A DNA stretch of 64,000 bases from Candidatus Nitrotoga sp. SPKER (GTDB lineage Bacteria; Pseudomonadota; Gammaproteobacteria; Burkholderiales; Gallionellaceae). A program made the translations under genes and the position numbers. Of this stretch, positions 6,893-29,618 are shown in pieces; position 1 is the stretch's first letter, and every line of letters begins with the position of its first letter. The stretch spans positions 1 to 64,000 of the forward strand of contig QFXG01000006.1 in NCBI GenBank assembly GCA_003402285.1, written 5' to 3'. The notes under the pieces were generated by a model. It worked only from the letters and a program-made list of their open reading frames with translations. It was not told the DNA's origin and searched no databases.

Positions 6893-8392
6893 ATGATCAA
6901 GTCTCTACATTCATTTCTTTCAAGCACAAGATTCTTCACATTTGCGTTGCTGAATATCGCTTTGCTCGTCGCGTGTGCACCTGAAGAGCCGTCCAAAAAA
7001 CCATGGCGAGAAGAATTAACGGTCATCGTCGTCCCAGGTGAAAATAGTGTGGATGCTGAATTTGAGCGCCAGCTCGTTAATCTTTTTGCCGAACAATTGA
7101 ACGTAAAAATAAAGTTTGTGCCACTACCCTTGGATCAAGTGAAGCAGTCTATTGTGGCGAGCAATGCACATTTCGCCGCATCTGGATCAAGAAGCAACGA
7201 TAGTGAGAGCGTAAAGTTTGGCCCCCCCTATCAAACTGTAACTGAGCAGGCGGTATGCAAAGGTGTGCCGCTACGACGCATGGAAGGACTCTTTAAAAAA
7301 AATATCGCCGTCGCAGCTGGCTCCGCGCAAGAAAGTGCCTTGCATGAAGCACACAAGAAGTTTCCAGCGCTGCACTGGCACACACGCCCTAATCAGTCTG
7401 TTGCACAGCTACTAAAAGAGGTGGCGGAAGGCAAACTGGAATGCACAGTCGCGAACGAGGAGCAACTGGCGTTGGCACGCAATTACTATCCCAACCTGGA
7501 TTCCACACTCGAAATTGCTACCCCTTCCAAATTAGCCTGGACGTTTGCACCGGACGCCGACGCCGAACTGTTGGCAGAAGCACAAAAATTTTTCGCTCTC
7601 ATTAAACAAAATGGCACTTTGCATCGCCTGCTGGAGCGCTATTACGGACACAACAAACAACTTGACTCAGACGACGCGGTTGCATTTATCACCAAGACAC
7701 AAACAGTGTTACCCCATATTCGAAATCTGTTTGAAGAAGCGGCCACTTTAACCGGGATGGATTGGCAACTATTCGCTGCTCTCGCCTATCATGAATCGCA
7801 TTGGGATCCGCTTGCCACTTCGCCTACCAAAGTACGTGGCATGATGATGCTGACTGAAGACACAGCTGACCGTATGGGCGTAACTAACCGGCTTGATGCA
7901 CGCCAAAGCATTATTGGCGGGGCAAAATACCTGCTGTTACTGAAAGAACAGCTGCCGCTGCGCATCAGTGACCCAGATCGCACCTGGCTAGCTCTGGCAG
8001 CTTATAACCAAGGGTATGGGCACCTGGAGGATGCACGCGTGCTGGCCCAACAACAAGGTTACAATCCAGATATATGGGCAGATGTAAAGAAGGTGATGCC
8101 GCTACTGGCACAACCGCTGTATTTTGAAAAGACCAAACACGGTTATGCACGCGGGGGCGAAGCGGTCTTTCTGGTTGAAACGGTACGTATGCACCATGAC
8201 ATGTTGTACAGCCTACCTTTAGGCAGTGTGCCGCGACTGATTCCTCCGGCGCAAGATTATAAGATACTGGGAAAGAGAAAAAATGAAGCGCAGCACCGCT
8301 TATCTTCAAGTGCAAGCAACAATCTATCCGCACCGAGCAAACCTCTTGGTATTTATCACCCTGCAAGGAACGAGGTGCAACCCGCACGCTAA
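6893..8392 (+). CDS. mltF: Membrane-bound lytic murein transglycosylase F
   Basis: Outer-membrane lipoprotein that cleaves peptidoglycan glycan strands, 499 residues. A signal peptide ends in the lipobox LLVAC with Cys28. Residues about 40-255 form a periplasmic solute-binding-like domain (SBP_bac_3 type), characteristic of MltF. Residues about 275-440 form the SLT lysozyme-like domain, with catalytic Glu301 in AYHESHWDP, then the family motifs GMMMLTEDTADRMGV and LAAYNQGYGHL. I chose the ATG at 6893 because it places the hydrophobic segment at the N-terminus. An ATG at 6851 would add 14 residues and begin inside the presumed promoter next to tRNA-Ser. The gene is monocistronic. Confidence 0.92.
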   Translation: MIKSLHSFLSSTRFFTFALLNIALLVACAPEEPSKKPWREELTVIVVPGENSVDAEFERQLVNLFAEQLNVKIKFVPLPLDQVKQSIVASNAHFAASGSRSNDSESVKFGPPYQTVTEQAVCKGVPLRRMEGLFKKNIAVAAGSAQESALHEAHKKFPALHWHTRPNQSVAQLLKEVAEGKLECTVANEEQLALARNYYPNLDSTLEIATPSKLAWTFAPDADAELLAEAQKFFALIKQNGTLHRLLERYYGHNKQLDSDDAVAFITKTQTVLPHIRNLFEEAATLTGMDWQLFAALAYHESHWDPLATSPTKVRGMMMLTEDTADRMGVTNRLDARQSIIGGAKYLLLLKEQLPLRISDPDRTWLALAAYNQGYGHLEDARVLAQQQGYNPDIWADVKKVMPLLAQPLYFEKTKHGYARGGEAVFLVETVRMHHDMLYSLPLGSVPRLIPPAQDYKILGKRKNEAQHRLSSSASNNLSAPSKPLGIYHPARNEVQPAR

Positions 8393-8432
8393 TTGAACTC
8401 CTCCTGCCTCCAAGTTCGCTGCACTTCACGAA

Positions 8433-8945
8433 TCACCAAGAAAATTTAATAACCATCACTTTCATATATTCTTGATTCACACGTTCCAGCATTATTTTAA
8501 GTTCCTCTTGCCAAGCACCTGTCAATTTTAACAAGCCATCTTCTTTATTTAGTGCTTTAAGAGCGGTCGAATCCGGTATATTCTCATTGAGAAGCTGTTT
8601 AAGGTTAAGTACCGATTTGTAAAAATCGGCACAGCTTTTTGCAAAATCCTTGAAACGCCAGTCAATTGCCAGATACAGAAGAATTGAACTCTCCTCTTCC
8701 AGAAATATGCTATCCACATTTTTCAAATCATCCATCAGACTCATCATTTTCTTTTCAGAAGCGCCAGAATCTACTTCGCTCGCTTGGCTAGCAATGCGGA
8801 ACGTACTTTTCAAATGTATCGCCAATTTTTGGCAACTTTCTTGCAGCTCAGCTGCCAGTTCTCTGCGCTGAGCAAGAGCATCACTTCTGGGCTCAATGAG
8901 GCGCTTCAAAATGGTACTCAATGTTGAAATTTCCGATATTTCCAT
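8433..8945 (-). CDS. Hypothetical helical cytoplasmic protein
   Basis: A 170-residue protein with no signal peptide or membrane segment. It is rich in Leu, Lys, Glu and Ser and looks mainly alpha-helical throughout (for example LKRLIEPRSDALAQRRELAA and MLERVNQEYMKVMVIKF). I do not recognise a family. The ATG at 8945 has an excellent AAGGAGAT seven bases upstream, so it is very probably translated. A reading from 8972 would put that site inside the gene. It is convergent with mltF across a 40-base gap and lies downstream of serS, separated by 210 bases. Confidence 0.7.
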   Translation of the reverse strand: MEISEISTLSTILKRLIEPRSDALAQRRELAAELQESCQKLAIHLKSTFRIASQASEVDSGASEKKMMSLMDDLKNVDSIFLEEESSILLYLAIDWRFKDFAKSCADFYKSVLNLKQLLNENIPDSTALKALNKEDGLLKLTGAWQEELKIMLERVNQEYMKVMVIKFSW

Positions 8946-25393: not shown

Positions 25394-25870
25394 ATGTTTA
25401 ATGTAATCCTCTTCCAGCCTGAGATTCCGCCTAATACCGGAAACGTCATCCGCCTGTGTGCCAACACCGGGACGCAACTGCATTTGATCCGGCCGCTCGG
25501 ATTTGAGCTGGATGATAAACAGCTGCGGCGCGCCGGGCTGGATTATCACGAATACGCCAATCTGCATGTATACGACGACCTCGCCGCCTGCCTGCAAACC
25601 CTGCCGGGTGCGCGTCTGTTTGCATACACGACCAAAGGCAAACAGCCTTATCACGAGATATGTTATCAAGCAGGTGATGCATTTCTATTCGGACCGGAAA
25701 CTCGTGGCTTGCCTGTGGATATATTGGCATCATTATCGCCAGAGCAGTGCCTGCGCATGCCTATGCTGCCGAATAATCGCAGCCTGAATTTATCCAACAC
25801 AGTTGCGGTAGCGGTGTTTGAAGCGTGGCGTCAATGCGGGTTTGCGGGGGCTGATAGATCGTTCCGTTAA
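25394..25870 (+). CDS. trmL: tRNA (cytidine(34)-2'-O)-methyltransferase
   Basis: SPOUT-class methyltransferase that 2'-O-methylates the wobble base of tRNA-Leu, 158 residues. Motifs are FQPEIPPNTGNVIRLCANTG at the N-terminus, then FLFGPETRGLP, and the knot-forming MPMLPNNRSLNLSNTVAVAV. GAGG precedes the ATG. The length is normal for TrmL. It is the last ordinary gene before the decayed region starting near 25.9 kb. Confidence 0.95.
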   Translation: MFNVILFQPEIPPNTGNVIRLCANTGTQLHLIRPLGFELDDKQLRRAGLDYHEYANLHVYDDLAACLQTLPGARLFAYTTKGKQPYHEICYQAGDAFLFGPETRGLPVDILASLSPEQCLRMPMLPNNRSLNLSNTVAVAVFEAWRQCGFAGADRSFR

Positions 25871-25977
25871 AAAATTACAGCATAAATAAATGTAACAAAT
25901 CAATGAGGTAAATGGGATCCAGCCATTTACGAAGTGCAACAAAGTTTGTTGGAATGTTAACCATCTAGCCATGTAGG

Positions 25978-25999
25978 GTGGGCACGGTTTTGTGCCCAC
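25978..25999. repeat. REP hairpin, left copy
   Basis: Perfect eight-base arms GTGGGCAC and GTGCCCAC around a six-base loop, with GTAGG before and GCGG after. It matches the right copy at 26468-26489 in inverted orientation. The two bracket a dead REP-associated transposase gene. Confidence 0.85.
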
Positions 26000-26028
26000 G
26001 CGGATTCGACATTTTGGAGTAGACAGCT

Positions 26029-26462
26029 ACGTCACGTTATCGCTGCGCAATGGCTGCTGGCTCACGCCATTTCTTTACGGTGGTTGCTTACCCGCGGCAG
26101 TCAATTCTATGTGATGAAGCTATTCGTAATGCATTGCGCGCCTCAATCTAAACGGTGCGCGTGGCGCGCCCTTTCGTCATTGATGTATGGGTATTGTTGC
26201 CTAACCATTTACATTGCGTGTGAACATTGCCTGACGGTGATGCCGATTTTTCCACCCGTTGGATGATGATCAAGCGAGCGGTTTCTTTGACCTGCAGAGA
26301 AGATTATCGTCGTGCCGACTGGGTGACTGCATCAAAACTCAAACATCGCGAATCAACTATCTGGCAACGGCGATTCTGGGAACACCAAATTCGTGATGAA
26401 AATGATTTTGCCCGCCATGTCGATTACATTCATTTCAACCCGTTTAAACACGGGCCTAGTTG
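26029..26462 (+). pseudogene. REP-associated tyrosine transposase (RAYT), inactivated
   Basis: One frame from 26029 reads as a RAYT (TnpA_REP, Y1/IS200-like HUH) protein almost throughout. It shows SRYRCAMAAGSRHFFTVV, then the HUH motif region LLPNHLHCV, then GDADFSTRWMMIKRAVS, and the catalytic-Tyr region HVDYIHFNPFKHG. Lesions: the expected ATG is ACG (26029), with GGAG upstream. There are two in-frame stops, TAA after RASI and TGA where homologues have Trp after HLHCV. One extra G lies after KHG, beyond which the next frame reads LVARV before the sequence runs into the right REP. The C-terminal tail is missing. REP hairpins flank it on both sides. Confidence 0.88.
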
Positions 26463-26467
26463 CCCGC

Positions 26468-26489
26468 GTGGGCACAAAAACGTGCCCCC
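26468..26489. repeat. REP hairpin, right copy, inverted
   Basis: GTGGGCAC, six-base loop, GTGCCCCC (one mismatch). Its reverse complement, including flanks, matches the left REP (GTAG...GGGCACG...TTTTGTGCCCACGCGG). It joins the truncated transposase to the yicC fragment. Confidence 0.8.
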
Positions 26490-26507
26490 TCTACTTGGCT
26501 ACTTGGC

Positions 26508-26677
26508 TGGTCAAAGGCGGGACAGTAGGCAAGCGGCTGGATTTTCTGATGCAGGAACTACACCGCGAGGCGAATACGCTAGGCTCGAAGTCCGTCGATG
26601 CAGAAGTCTCACGTGCGTCCATGGAAATGAAGCTATTGATTGAGCAGATGCATGAACAAATTCAGAACTTGGAGTGA
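26508..26677 (+). pseudogene. 3' fragment of yicC
   Basis: The last roughly 55 codons of a YicC-family gene (endoribonuclease/YicC). They read KGGTVGKRLDFLMQELHREA, then NTLGSKSVDAEVSRASMEMK, and end in LIEQMHEQIQNLE and a TGA. The fragment is well conserved but has no N-terminal part. Upstream sequence is REP and transposase debris. The intact protein is usually close to 290 residues, so this is a truncated relic, possibly of a duplicate copy. A strong hairpin terminator follows at 26713, probably that of the original gene. Confidence 0.9.
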
Positions 26678-26712
26678 CATTTTAGATCGTCACATGTCAT
26701 CGCAGATAACCA

Positions 26713-26741
26713 AAAGAAGCCTCTAAAATTGAGGCTTCTTT
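26713..26741. terminator. Bidirectional rho-independent terminator
   Basis: Arms AAAGAAGCCTC and GAGGCTTCTTT around a seven-base AT loop (TAAAATT), with A-rich and T-rich ends. It lies 35 bases after the yicC fragment and faces the 3' end of the nuclease-like gene. Confidence 0.85.
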
Positions 26742-26809
26742 GCATCTTGCTGTTGCGGCATCGGATTGGAGTGGACAAATAGGTGATGGAGTAGATGGTG
26801 AGCGGTGAA

Positions 26810-26840
26810 AGGTTGGGCTTCATTTTATTCAGCCCAACCT
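26810..26840. repeat. GGTTGGGCTTCATTT hairpin repeat
   Basis: Perfect ten-base arms AGGTTGGGCT and AGCCCAACCT with an 11-base loop. A diverged copy lies at 6664-6693. The stop codon and last few codons of the nuclease-like gene (ending at 26825) lie inside it, so it may also act as its terminator. Confidence 0.75.
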
Positions 26841-28237
26841 TCCGAGCTTTGATTAATATCGAATTCAACGATGCCGGAAGCCTTAATCATATCTTGCAGT
26901 ATTTGGGCACCTTTTGATTTATCGTTCATAAATAGGCAGAATGCTTCAAAGAACTTAGCGCTTGAAATCAATGCGATATTCCACTGCTCTGCCCGTGAGA
27001 TTACATTATCAGGGAACTCTGGTTTCTCGGATGTGTTTCTTTCCTCAGGAGGAAATATTCGCCATGAGTTACCAAATAGAATCCCCTTACACGCCTTTCC
27101 CATATCCTCTTCATATTTCAAAATATAATCGTTAAGTTGCCGTATGTGCCCTAAAGAGATGCTTTTACTAACGCCTTTAACTTCTATTAGATATTCAACT
27201 TCATCATATTCCAATATGTATTCTTCCTGCCCATACTTGGCGGGAGTAACTTTGGCTCCTAATTCCTCAAGGCATATTTTTACAATTTCCTCCAGATCAA
27301 ACCCTGACGAATATAATAGTTTGCGATAGTTATTGAGAGACTCACGCCTATTTGCTAGCTTTCCGATCTCTCCAGATATCACGTCAATCCGATATTCCTT
27401 TTCTTTTATCTCAATTTCAATCTCCGCTATATGTGGAACAACTATGGAATCGACCCAACTTGGCGGGGCATATCCCATTGGGCTGCCGATCAGATCTTCA
27501 AGTACCAAACGTACAGCTTCTTTGTGATCAAGTTTCTCGATCAATGGAAGTAAAACAATTTCACCCGTTACATGGTCTCGTGTATCGGGATAATCATCGT
27601 AGGAGTTATAGCCTGAAGATTTACGTTGCTTAAAGGTTACTTCAATGTGGATTGCTCCTGCTATTGTTTTCTCATACCGATTTTCAACGAATGAAGATAA
27701 TGGGACACCATATTTTACTTCACTGGTAGCACCATAAAATTCTGTGAGTTGCTGGGACAGACAACTAGTAGGTACGAAAAAATAATAAGGCCAATTTTGG
27801 AGGTGCTGGATATAGCGAGGGAATCGCGTTTCCTTAATTTCTAGGCTCTCACCTGACTCATTCGATATTCCAATATTTACTGGACACCAATCATAGTTAT
27901 CAGCGGAACCGGGGTATTGTTTTGGTCGCGCATGCCTTTTTATAAAGTCGGTTACAACGATGATGCGGCCATTGGAGTCCAAAAGACGTGTTAATTGGTG
28001 TCGAATGGCTTCCAAACGTTTGTTTGATACAAAAGAGAGCTTTTTTTCATCTAATGCTCTCACATCCACGATTATCACATCGTAATCTACTAAATTTGGT
28101 AGTACTTCCACATCCCACTCTACCGCATCAATGCCGCTATATCCAGATGAACCAAGGACAAGGCATTTTTCATTTGGCGCTAGAAGCGCTGCATCTTCGG
28201 CTGTCTCACCAGGGTGAATATTTATTGTTTGCGCCAT
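26825..28237 (-). CDS. Standalone PD-(D/E)xK nuclease-like protein of unknown function
   Basis: A 470-residue cytoplasmic protein in AT-rich DNA. The N-terminal part (about residues 20-130) looks Rossmann-like: KCLVLGSSG, then LVDYDVIIVDVRALDE and LLDSNGRIIVVTDF. The middle (130-270) is unrecognised. Residues about 272-305 are charged and probably coiled coil (AEIEIEIKEKEYRIDVISGE). The C-terminal part from about 312 fits a restriction-endonuclease fold. It begins with helix DLEEIVKICLEELGAKV, then a strand with EYDEVEYLIEVKG, giving Glu352-x-Lys354 with an acidic partner at Asp345 or nearby, and then SLGHIRQLNDYILKY. No methyltransferase or helicase partner is adjacent. Relic genes and palindromes surround it. 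A defence or DNA-processing role is inference only. Confidence 0.72.
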   Translation of the reverse strand: MAQTINIHPGETAEDAALLAPNEKCLVLGSSGYSGIDAVEWDVEVLPNLVDYDVIIVDVRALDEKKLSFVSNKRLEAIRHQLTRLLDSNGRIIVVTDFIKRHARPKQYPGSADNYDWCPVNIGISNESGESLEIKETRFPRYIQHLQNWPYYFFVPTSCLSQQLTEFYGATSEVKYGVPLSSFVENRYEKTIAGAIHIEVTFKQRKSSGYNSYDDYPDTRDHVTGEIVLLPLIEKLDHKEAVRLVLEDLIGSPMGYAPPSWVDSIVVPHIAEIEIEIKEKEYRIDVISGEIGKLANRRESLNNYRKLLYSSGFDLEEIVKICLEELGAKVTPAKYGQEEYILEYDEVEYLIEVKGVSKSISLGHIRQLNDYILKYEEDMGKACKGILFGNSWRIFPPEERNTSEKPEFPDNVISRAEQWNIALISSAKFFEAFCLFMNDKSKGAQILQDMIKASGIVEFDINQSSEGWAE

Positions 28238-28309
28238 TTAAGTCAGTAAGCTCCAAGTAAATCTAATATTAAACAGAGGGCATAGCAGTAGCCACAATAC
28301 AAGCGCGGG

Positions 28310-28354
28310 GTCAGATATAACATTCAATCAGAATACTGGAATGTTATATCTGAC
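28310..28354. repeat. Perfect 16-base inverted repeat
   Basis: GTCAGATATAACATTC (28310-28325) and its exact reverse complement (28339-28354) enclose 13 bases. It starts GGGGTCAGA, like the next element, and lies 73 bases upstream of the nuclease-like gene. No T-tract follows, so a terminator role is unlikely. Confidence 0.85.
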
Positions 28355-28363
28355 TTCATGACT

Positions 28364-28436
28364 GAGGTCAGAGTAAACTTAAAGCTTCTGTTATGCCATC
28401 TTAAATTATTCACTTCGCTAAATTTATTCTAACCCC
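28364..28436. repeat. Imperfect inverted repeat ending at the cbpA relic
   Basis: Left arm GAGGTCAGAGTAAACTTA (28364-28381) and right arm 28419-28436, whose reverse complement is GGGGTTAGAATAAATTTA. The arms agree at 14 of 18 positions. The outer ends share the GGGGTCAGA-like start with the neighbouring palindrome and look like transposon or MITE ends. Confidence 0.6.
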
Positions 28437-28446
28437 AGCCATGTAA

Positions 28447-28667
28447 CTATTGGTAGCCTTGGCCAATGCGGTCATAGGCGGCAAATTTTTCCGGATCGGA
28501 CAGTACGGCGTAGGCATCATTAATTTCTTTCATCCGACCCTCCGCGTCTTTTACGTGAGACACGTCCTGATGATATTTGCGCGCCAGTTTGCGGAAAGAT
28601 TTCTTGATCTCTTCCGCCGTGCATCTCGCGATATGGCCGGTATCTTGTAATAGTCCTGATATTGTAT
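28447..28667 (-). pseudogene. cbpA J-domain remnant, inactivated
   Basis: Remnant of a DnaJ-type co-chaperone (CbpA). After GGAGAGGTTC the frame begins ATA instead of ATG and reads QYQDYYKI, then a J-domain in the next frame: [20 protein letters not shown] and [20 protein letters not shown] then YDRIGQGYQ, and stop. At least three lesions are visible. The start codon is ATG to ATA. One base is missing between SRDA and TAEE. The HPD motif that stimulates DnaK ATPase is HQD. Everything after the J-domain is missing, cut close to the inverted repeat at 28364-28436. It is divergent from the hsp20 pair, suggesting a former heat-shock cluster. Confidence 0.88.
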
Positions 28668-28731
28668 GAACCTCTCCAGAATATTTCTGACCCATAAACT
28701 ATACGTGGTCAGATTTTTCCACTTTCAAACA

Positions 28732-28760
28732 CTTGAAAATTTATGTTCGTGTCCACAGAT
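28732..28760 (+). promoter_or_regulatory. Candidate sigma32 heat-shock promoter
   Basis: CTTGAAA (28732-28738), 14 bases, then CCACAGAT (28753-28760). This is close to the RpoH consensus CTTGAAA-N13/14-CCCCATnT. It lies 50 bases upstream of the first hsp20 gene, which fits. Confidence 0.6.
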
Positions 28761-28809
28761 TGTGTGGTATGGCAATCCTGCCAGCATTTACACGTTGAAA
28801 GGAGACATC

Positions 28810-29229
28810 ATGCATTATCGAGGTATTTTTCCCCGCGATCTGTTTTCGGAACTGGAGCGGTTGCAGCGTGAGTTTGACGGCTCCCCCAGCATTCGCGGTG
28901 CGGCGCCAGGCTATCCGGCCATGAACGTTGGCACAACACCGAAGTCGGTTGAGGTCTATGCCTTTGCGCCCGGCATGACACCGGAGGAATTCGATGTGCA
29001 AGTCGAGAATGGCGTGCTGACCATCAGTGGCGAGCGCAAAAACATAGTGCCGCCTGAGGGAGCGACCATACATATTGGCGAACATTTCTCCGGGCGTTTC
29101 CGACGTGTCGTATCGCTGCCGGACGACATCGAGCCGAATTCGACTACGGCCAGTTATCGCGATGGCGTGCTACACGTCTGCGTGGCGCGCAGGGAAGCTG
29201 CCCAATCGCGCCGGATTTCGGTTCAATAA
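28810..29229 (+). CDS. Hsp20/alpha-crystallin small heat-shock protein (first copy)
   Basis: A 139-residue ATP-independent holdase that binds unfolding proteins. The alpha-crystallin domain spans about residues 38-139: PAMNVGTTPKSVEVYAFAPG, then FDVQVENGVLTISGERK and SYRDGVLHVCVARRE, which is the usual GVL motif. The start is the ATG with AAGGAG nine bases before it. A longer upstream frame exists but lacks this site. It forms a two-gene operon with the next hsp20 (14-base gap), behind a sigma32-like promoter. The C-terminal IxI anchor appears as RISV, so the motif is weak. Confidence 0.93.
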   Translation: MHYRGIFPRDLFSELERLQREFDGSPSIRGAAPGYPAMNVGTTPKSVEVYAFAPGMTPEEFDVQVENGVLTISGERKNIVPPEGATIHIGEHFSGRFRRVVSLPDDIEPNSTTASYRDGVLHVCVARREAAQSRRISVQ

Positions 29230-29243
29230 GAAAGGAGAACACC

Positions 29244-29618
29244 ATGAGCGAGAAAGCCATCAAGCGTGAAAATGCGAGTGAAGAAAGTGCAGCCATGCGC
29301 CCTGCAGTGAACGTAGTTGAAGATGCGACCGGTATCACACTGTATGCCGACCTGCCTGGAGTGCCAAAAGAAAAATTGTCCATCCATGTGGAAGGCGACA
29401 ATCTGATTCTGGAAGGCGAGCTGGAAATAAATTCCCCGCCAAACACGGAGGCGATCCACGCTGAAGTCGATCTGTCGCGTTACCGTCGGGTATTCACCCT
29501 GTCGCGAGAACTGGATGGCGACAAGGTATCGGCAGAATTTCGGCATGGCATGCTGAAATTGCGTATTCCGAAAGCCGAGCATGCCAAGCCGCGCCGGATC
29601 GTAGTGCAAACTACCTGA
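29244..29618 (+). CDS. Hsp20/alpha-crystallin small heat-shock protein (second copy)
   Basis: A 124-residue small heat-shock protein. The domain reads RPAVNVVEDATGITLYADLP, LSIHVEGDNLILEGELE and FRHGMLKLRIPKAEHAKPRR, then IVV as the C-terminal anchor. AAAGGAG lies before the ATG. It differs clearly from the first copy, so the pair could form mixed oligomers, as known for tandem Hsp20 genes in other bacteria. A GC-rich hairpin follows. Confidence 0.93.
   Translation: MSEKAIKRENASEESAAMRPAVNVVEDATGITLYADLPGVPKEKLSIHVEGDNLILEGELEINSPPNTEAIHAEVDLSRYRRVFTLSRELDGDKVSAEFRHGMLKLRIPKAEHAKPRRIVVQTT

Follow-up and report, generated by a model that had tools for sequence, protein, structure and literature searches.

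A GATase1-like protein with a predicted PD-(D/E)xK nuclease domain, encoded by a candidate defence gene in a cargo site of Candidatus Nitrotoga

Introduction

What does a single intact, AT-rich gene lying among gene relics encode, and could it serve its host in defence? The gene in question is on the reverse strand at positions 26825..28237 of the window, by which we mean the whole 64,000-nucleotide stretch analysed here (positions 1 to 64,000 of contig QFXG01000006.1 of Candidatus Nitrotoga sp. SPKER). An original prediction, made from the sequence alone, had taken it for an intact 470-residue protein with a restriction-endonuclease-like arrangement that could be a solo defence or DNA-quality system. 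We describe it as a distant member of a sparse family whose proteins join a GATase1-like domain, a coiled coil and a PD-(D/E)xK nuclease-like domain, and we favour, by a small margin of belief, a role as a one-gene sensor-nuclease.

The open reading frame (ORF) runs from an ATG start to a TAA stop with zero internal stop codons, and the gene was rightly called AT-rich, with a GC content of 40.8%, where the window as a whole has 48.8%; among equal-length segments of the window, taken in steps of 100 bases, 0.5% lie lower than the gene.

Domain architecture and predicted fold

In the predicted model the nuclease half contains, in order, a helix (residues 312-325), three strands (329-332, 339-344 and 347-356), a further helix (362-379) and a last strand (383-391), and residues 271-460 are modelled with block-mean predicted local distance difference test (pLDDT) values of 85-98. 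The alpha-beta-beta-beta-alpha-beta core of the PD-(D/E)xK superfamily is thus present in the predicted models with good confidence, so that the fold expected from the sequence, and specifically its core within residues 310-400, was recovered, as was the coiled coil placed ahead of it, which is modelled as one long helix. The closest solved folds to the nuclease half are the FokI cleavage domain, Nt.BspD6I, AF1548 and EndoMS, which differ from the family protein in their partner domains and share only 6-20% sequence identity with it.

The N-terminal half had been noted as a domain of unrecognised kind. The domain is there, and its fold can be recognised, since structure comparison of the predicted model matches it to GATase1 chains; residues 135-161 and 181-221 of the window copy have pLDDT values below 50. 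Among GATase1-like proteins such as ADC synthase GATase, STM1381, 3rht and the IFT52 N-domain, the family stands apart in having no conserved Cys column in its N-domain (the best Cys column holds 17 of 48 rows), and by that criterion it is not a class I glutamine amidotransferase.

A sparse family in many phyla

With the window protein as a single query we found no match in 60 other relatives (1 of 61 genomes with its own), its own copy only at the level of the phylum (1 of 398), a weak match in Fusobacterium, and nothing close among PDB sequences (to E 1), phages, plasmids (1e-5), genome_contigs and viral_contigs. The order-level search returned one genome besides its own, G221 (2 of 399, own included), and the class-level search with an 8-row profile its own copy only (1 of 321). 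The Fusobacterium relative used as a query matched nothing in viral_contigs or phages, and a profile search of PDB sequences gave barstar chains only, with a best E of 0.15, which we took as chance. Seeding with the G221 and Fusobacterium relatives led to plasmid genes of Enterobacter, Klebsiella, Serratia and Streptomyces, and six regions were fetched. A search with a four-row alignment then identified 5 loci in viral contigs (from 66 pattern stretches) and 61 in genomes (from 418), and a scan with the larger alignment A6, built from 48 of 53 listed relatives and the window protein (L018, L021, L047, L051 and L072 omitted, and truncated or short ORFs excluded from the list beforehand), picked up 7 viral-contig loci, two of them (L099 and L100) new.

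By record title, the family-bearing sequences come from Pseudomonadota, Campylobacterota, Thermodesulfobacteriota, Spirochaetota, Planctomycetota, Verrucomicrobiota, Nitrospirota, Chloroflexota, Myxococcota and others, with one Nanohaloarchaea metagenome-assembled genome (MAG) among them; because many loci are MAG contigs, these phylum labels may be wrong in places. At the sensitivity of the searches used the family appears sparse, and distant members can be missed.

That the window protein belongs to this family follows from profile comparison. In HHalign, a profile of 19 relatives built without the window protein matches it over residues 68-461 with an E of 2.6e-19, and the N-terminal part alone matches with an E of 2.5e-4 and a score of 34.0, against scores of at most 20.6 for 20 shuffles and 15.5 for the reversed sequence. 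This makes the window protein a distant member related over its full length, and full-length homologues in many phyla with invariant active-site columns take the observation beyond chance. Architecture and family are in our view well supported. A quick tree, from which truncated homologues, rows with X, L022 and L049 were omitted, puts the window protein outside the 53-row main clade (Shimodaira-Hasegawa-like approximate likelihood ratio test, SH-aLRT, 99) on a long branch whose placement is unsure.

The copies of Pfam, NCBIfam and PADLOC used here hold no model for the family: none of their families was matched by more than one of 49 members, and the window protein had only weak matches, to Mrr_cat (E 0.075), Histone_HNS_N (E 0.048), Cas4_II (E 0.0043) and prfA (E 0.057). 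The Pfam and PADLOC libraries hold models for Shedu/DUF4263, and none of these matched the window protein to E 1 or the 49 members to E 0.01. Shedu (SduA) also differs from the family in structure, the N-domain here being GATase1-like and the nuclease half being better matched by FokI, AF1548 and EndoMS. The N-domain matches GATase1 chains and would thereby differ from the CARF nucleases Can2, Card1 and Cdn1 and from VC1899; among the structure matches listed, most CARF-nuclease chains cover the nuclease half only, and one, 6sce, spans both halves at a root-mean-square deviation of 24. An Enterobacter relative has a weak PADLOC CARF3 match (E 0.001), which lies within its coiled-coil part. With profile matches absent or below threshold, as for Mrr_cat (PF04471; 13.6 bits against a Pfam gathering score of 21), and with an N-half that is GATase1-like, we dropped membership in the Shedu and Mrr families and, less firmly, in the CARF families.

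As a separate observation, the Enterobacter plasmid copy (L005, 9992-11374) is followed, past the stop after residue 446, by in-frame residues resembling the family C-terminus, so its tail may be truncated.

Active-site residues

Every one of the 49 rows of A6 has E352, G355 and Q367. The catalytic-type motif IEVKG occupies residues 351-355, exactly as numbered originally from E352 and K354. Where the main clade reads S-E-F-D ... G-E-[AV]-E-G-[KR]-D, the corresponding letters of the window protein are Q-E-E-Y ... I-E-V-K-G, and relatives in Fusobacterium, Klebsiella and Streptomyces retain both the Asp of motif II and E-x-K. In the window copy E339 stands 13 residues before E352, a spacing that without gaps aligns it with the motif-II Asp; MAFFT instead aligns it with the invariant Glu column of S-E-F-D, two residues before the Asp, and leaves a gap at the Asp itself. 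With E339 so placed by ungapped spacing, the protein has an acidic motif-II residue together with the (D/E)-x-K element E352-x-K354. Judged by its residues, this copy combines a canonical E-x-K with an unusual motif-II Glu, and it may or may not cut. Its N-domain retains two Asp (residues 51 and 53) in A6.

Gene neighbourhood of the family

The ORFs of 73 loci were clustered, gene calls being greedy longest ORFs with false ones included. In 67 of the 73 loci the family gene falls into a single cluster. The largest neighbour cluster, of ABC-type ATPases, reaches only 10 loci, and the next, of late-control-type phage genes, 4, two of which (L004 and L022) carry the same gene. With no partner recurring widely, we regard the family gene as standalone, in keeping with the original prediction, and homologues are not confined to a multi-gene system.

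Some members have mobile contexts. Genes amid P2-like tail genes (L012, L014 and L004/L022) and one within a Mu-like prophage (L099) were recognised by eye, the other four of the seven viral-contig loci being unclassified; the seven plasmid records for the G221 relative are all from Enterobacter, six of them typed as conjugative; and L052 has a tRNA and an integrase-like ORF. KAP-type NTPases adjoin family or related genes at L003 (by eye), L007 and L014, and in Klebsiella (L007) a more distant relative follows pifC and an annotated P-loop NTPase gene. We rejected a KAP NTPase as an obligate partner, as it stands beside three genes only and there was no KAP cluster among the 45 largest listed.

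Further nuclease-related genes were seen by eye in these prophages. The cargo region of L014 also holds an AAA ATPase and HNH pair resembling Septu (969-2833), and in the P2-like prophage of L004 the family gene has a second, Mrr-like nuclease ORF (7556-8575) directly upstream of it.

The yicC-hsp20 cargo site in the genus

In the window the gene sits between a 170-bp yicC tail and a block with a DnaJ fragment and hsp20 genes (site 26506-28301; names by eye). A region search matched 18 of 19 genomes of the genus, its own included, and we fetched the site from nine sisters (L090-L098). Both edges lie within the fetched stretch in seven; the yicC edge falls outside it in two. The right edge is 91-95% identical in the nine sisters, its similarity starting at 28301 in four and at 28609-28707 in five. 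What lies in the gap differs among the seven: HEPN_Swt1 with DUF5343 (G006), a GNAT (G009), an SDR (G007), and, in G003, G008, G013 and G017, ORFs without a Pfam match, an unscanned short ORF or REP-type transposases. In G001, where the yicC edge is missing, transposases and a TIR protein occur on that side at a distance of about 3 kb. The window gene is absent from all nine sisters. If the family gene defends, the yicC-hsp20 site would be a compact region to search for more of its kind.

The same genome has an intact yicC region on a different contig (C26, L101), so the yicC tail is a partial second copy; it resembles a sister's yicC at 95% and the intact one at 91%. Two yicC tails about 8-16 kb apart also occur in five sisters.

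Proposed function and alternatives

The reading that we favour, with confidence a little above even, is that the gene encodes a one-gene sensor-nuclease limiting phages or rival mobile elements, working in the manner of Shedu while standing outside it. Shedu is a single-gene nuclease with variable N-domains, whose N-terminal clamp senses DNA ends (PMC12904381; also PMC12839542). In the family protein the GATase1-like domain, its amidotransferase nucleophile lost, would act as a sensing or docking module; the coiled coil would assemble copies into an oligomer; and the PD-(D/E)xK domain would cut nucleic acid, most likely invading DNA, once the sensor meets a sign of infection. Sequence or prediction supplies the domains, the fold, the conserved residues, the solo state and, for some members, the mobile contexts; the oligomer, DNA as the substrate, the trigger and the defensive role we infer. 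The gene would travel as single-gene cargo of prophages, plasmids and chromosomal sites, contexts that fit defence, and we count the low GC content of the window copy, the lack of a match to it in 60 other relatives and the varied cargo of the sister sites in favour. P2-like prophages carry hotspots of anti-phage systems (PMC9122126), and the DefensePredictor study gives PD-(D/E)xK domains in 13 of 31 further validated systems (PMC13092281).

Several results weigh against this reading. The motif-II Asp of 47 of 48 rows in alignment A9 is Glu or a gap in the window copy, and the well conserved His, Trp, Gly and Lys of the N-domain (residues 77, 78, 89 and 90) are absent from it. Neither a trigger nor a DNA-binding domain was found. 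PADLOC defence models match at least 6 of the 114 nearest neighbours and 2 of the 75 far genes (Fisher p 0.48), the first figure being a lower bound because it draws on 25 of 197 matched families. For this count DruM2 and MTase_II were one protein, mad3, mad8 and AriA (which match both sets) were excluded, and L002, L016, L021, L049 and every locus below L012 were omitted, together with cut genes, those containing X and those shorter than 90 aa; its sole CRISPR sign was one Cas10-model match among the 75 far genes. The enrichment in defence islands proposed as a check was thus not significant, and of the original "solo defence" the solo state stands while defence stays conditional. In the DefensePredictor work, one unit defended out of 24 that had remote homology but scored negative in the model, six of the 24 being PD-(D/E)xK nucleases (PMC13092281). 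Finally, blastn with the L005 and L007 genes gave no hit in 5,426 E. coli genomes, and the family may for that reason have escaped screens done in E. coli.

The family may be a nuclease of which the window copy is impaired, weak or inactive through Glu in place of the motif-II Asp, and decaying or left with DNA binding only. The exchange at E339, the long branch and the surrounding relics speak for this; the intact ORF, the retained E352, K354 and Q367, the acidic nature of Glu and the confidently modelled nuclease domain speak against it, and we think it improbable, though the strongest of the rivals. A small-molecule-triggered effector like Can2, Card1 or Cdn1, in which a metabolite or nucleotide bound in the GATase1-like pocket activates the nuclease, perhaps to kill the cell, seems to us a slim prospect: a synthase does not recur among the neighbours of the 73 loci, the N-domain appears to match GATase1 and not CARF chains, and of the conserved N-domain residues the window copy retains the two Asp but has lost the His, Trp, Gly and Lys. 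Slimmer still is a DNA repair or quality-control nuclease of the EndoMS/NucS or Mrr type with no part in conflict. EndoMS and AF1548 do rank among the best fold matches, but the patchy distribution in the genome tallies and the carriage of the gene by some prophages and plasmids argue otherwise.

Beyond the favoured sensor-nuclease reading lies a bolder proposal, which we offer tentatively and hold doubtful: one-protein immunity of a new type, whose infection sensor, a dead glutamine-amidotransferase-like domain reading a metabolite or phage protein, directly gates a FokI-like nuclease, and which is carried as prophage, plasmid and chromosomal cargo in many bacterial phyla and one archaeal MAG. 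To our knowledge, the GATase1-like fold has not been described as a sensor in single-gene defence nucleases. The parts of the literature covered, PMC10853773 and PMC12839542 included, describe no protein joining GATase1-like and PD-(D/E)xK domains; supplements lie outside that scope, and a tested member may go by another name. If defence holds true, a family present in many phyla would join the single-gene defence nucleases, and with one gene, two domains and clear catalytic residues it offers a clean test.

Features of the window around the gene

The borders of the gene are largely as first described. Relics stand at its sides (names by eye), and both the perfect palindrome and the hairpin repeat were located (Table 1). 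The palindrome sits in the flank common to four of the nine sister sites, and the stretch with the hairpin repeat has many copies, mostly partial, across sister genomes. Among the ORFs of 24-32 kb, judged by eye, we found no DNA methylase, helicase or ATPase, again as predicted.

Table 1. Positions of the gene, its domains and key residues, and neighbouring elements in the window
Feature	Position	Strand	Basis or remark
470-aa GATase1-like / coiled-coil / PD-(D/E)xK protein gene	26825..28237	-	ORF, predicted model, HHalign
N-terminal domain, about residues 23-254, GATase1-like fold	27476..28171	-	Predicted model, structure matches
Coiled-coil-like long helix, residues 268-308	27314..27436	-	Predicted model
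PD-(D/E)xK nuclease-like domain, residues 311-438	26924..27307	-	Predicted model, structure matches
E352, invariant catalytic-type Glu	27182..27184	-	Alignment A6
K354, canonical Lys	27176..27178	-	Glu in the 48 other A6 rows
Q367, invariant in A6	27137..27139	-	Helix following the active-site strand
E339, in place of the relatives' motif-II Asp	27221..27223	-	By ungapped spacing
Perfect 16-bp inverted repeat upstream of the gene	28310..28354	.	Arms 28310-28325/28339-28354, 13-nt loop
Dispersed repeat with hairpin	26755..26848	.	11-bp arms 26809-26819/26831-26841, spanning the stop codon
11-bp hairpin between yicC tail and gene	26713..26741	.	Terminator-like by eye
REP-transposase-like relic (presumed)	25967..26455	+	Name by eye
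yicC tail, 170 bp, left edge of cargo site	26506..26675	+	Name by eye
DnaJ-like fragment, relic	28447-28695		Name by eye
Right edge of cargo site: DnaJ-like fragment and two hsp20-like genes	28301..29618	+	Names by eye

Further to the left, a TrmL-like tRNA methyltransferase was recognised by eye at 25394-25870. The start of the relic that we take to be REP-transposase-like (25967-26500) has a 37-bp inverted match at 26464-26500.
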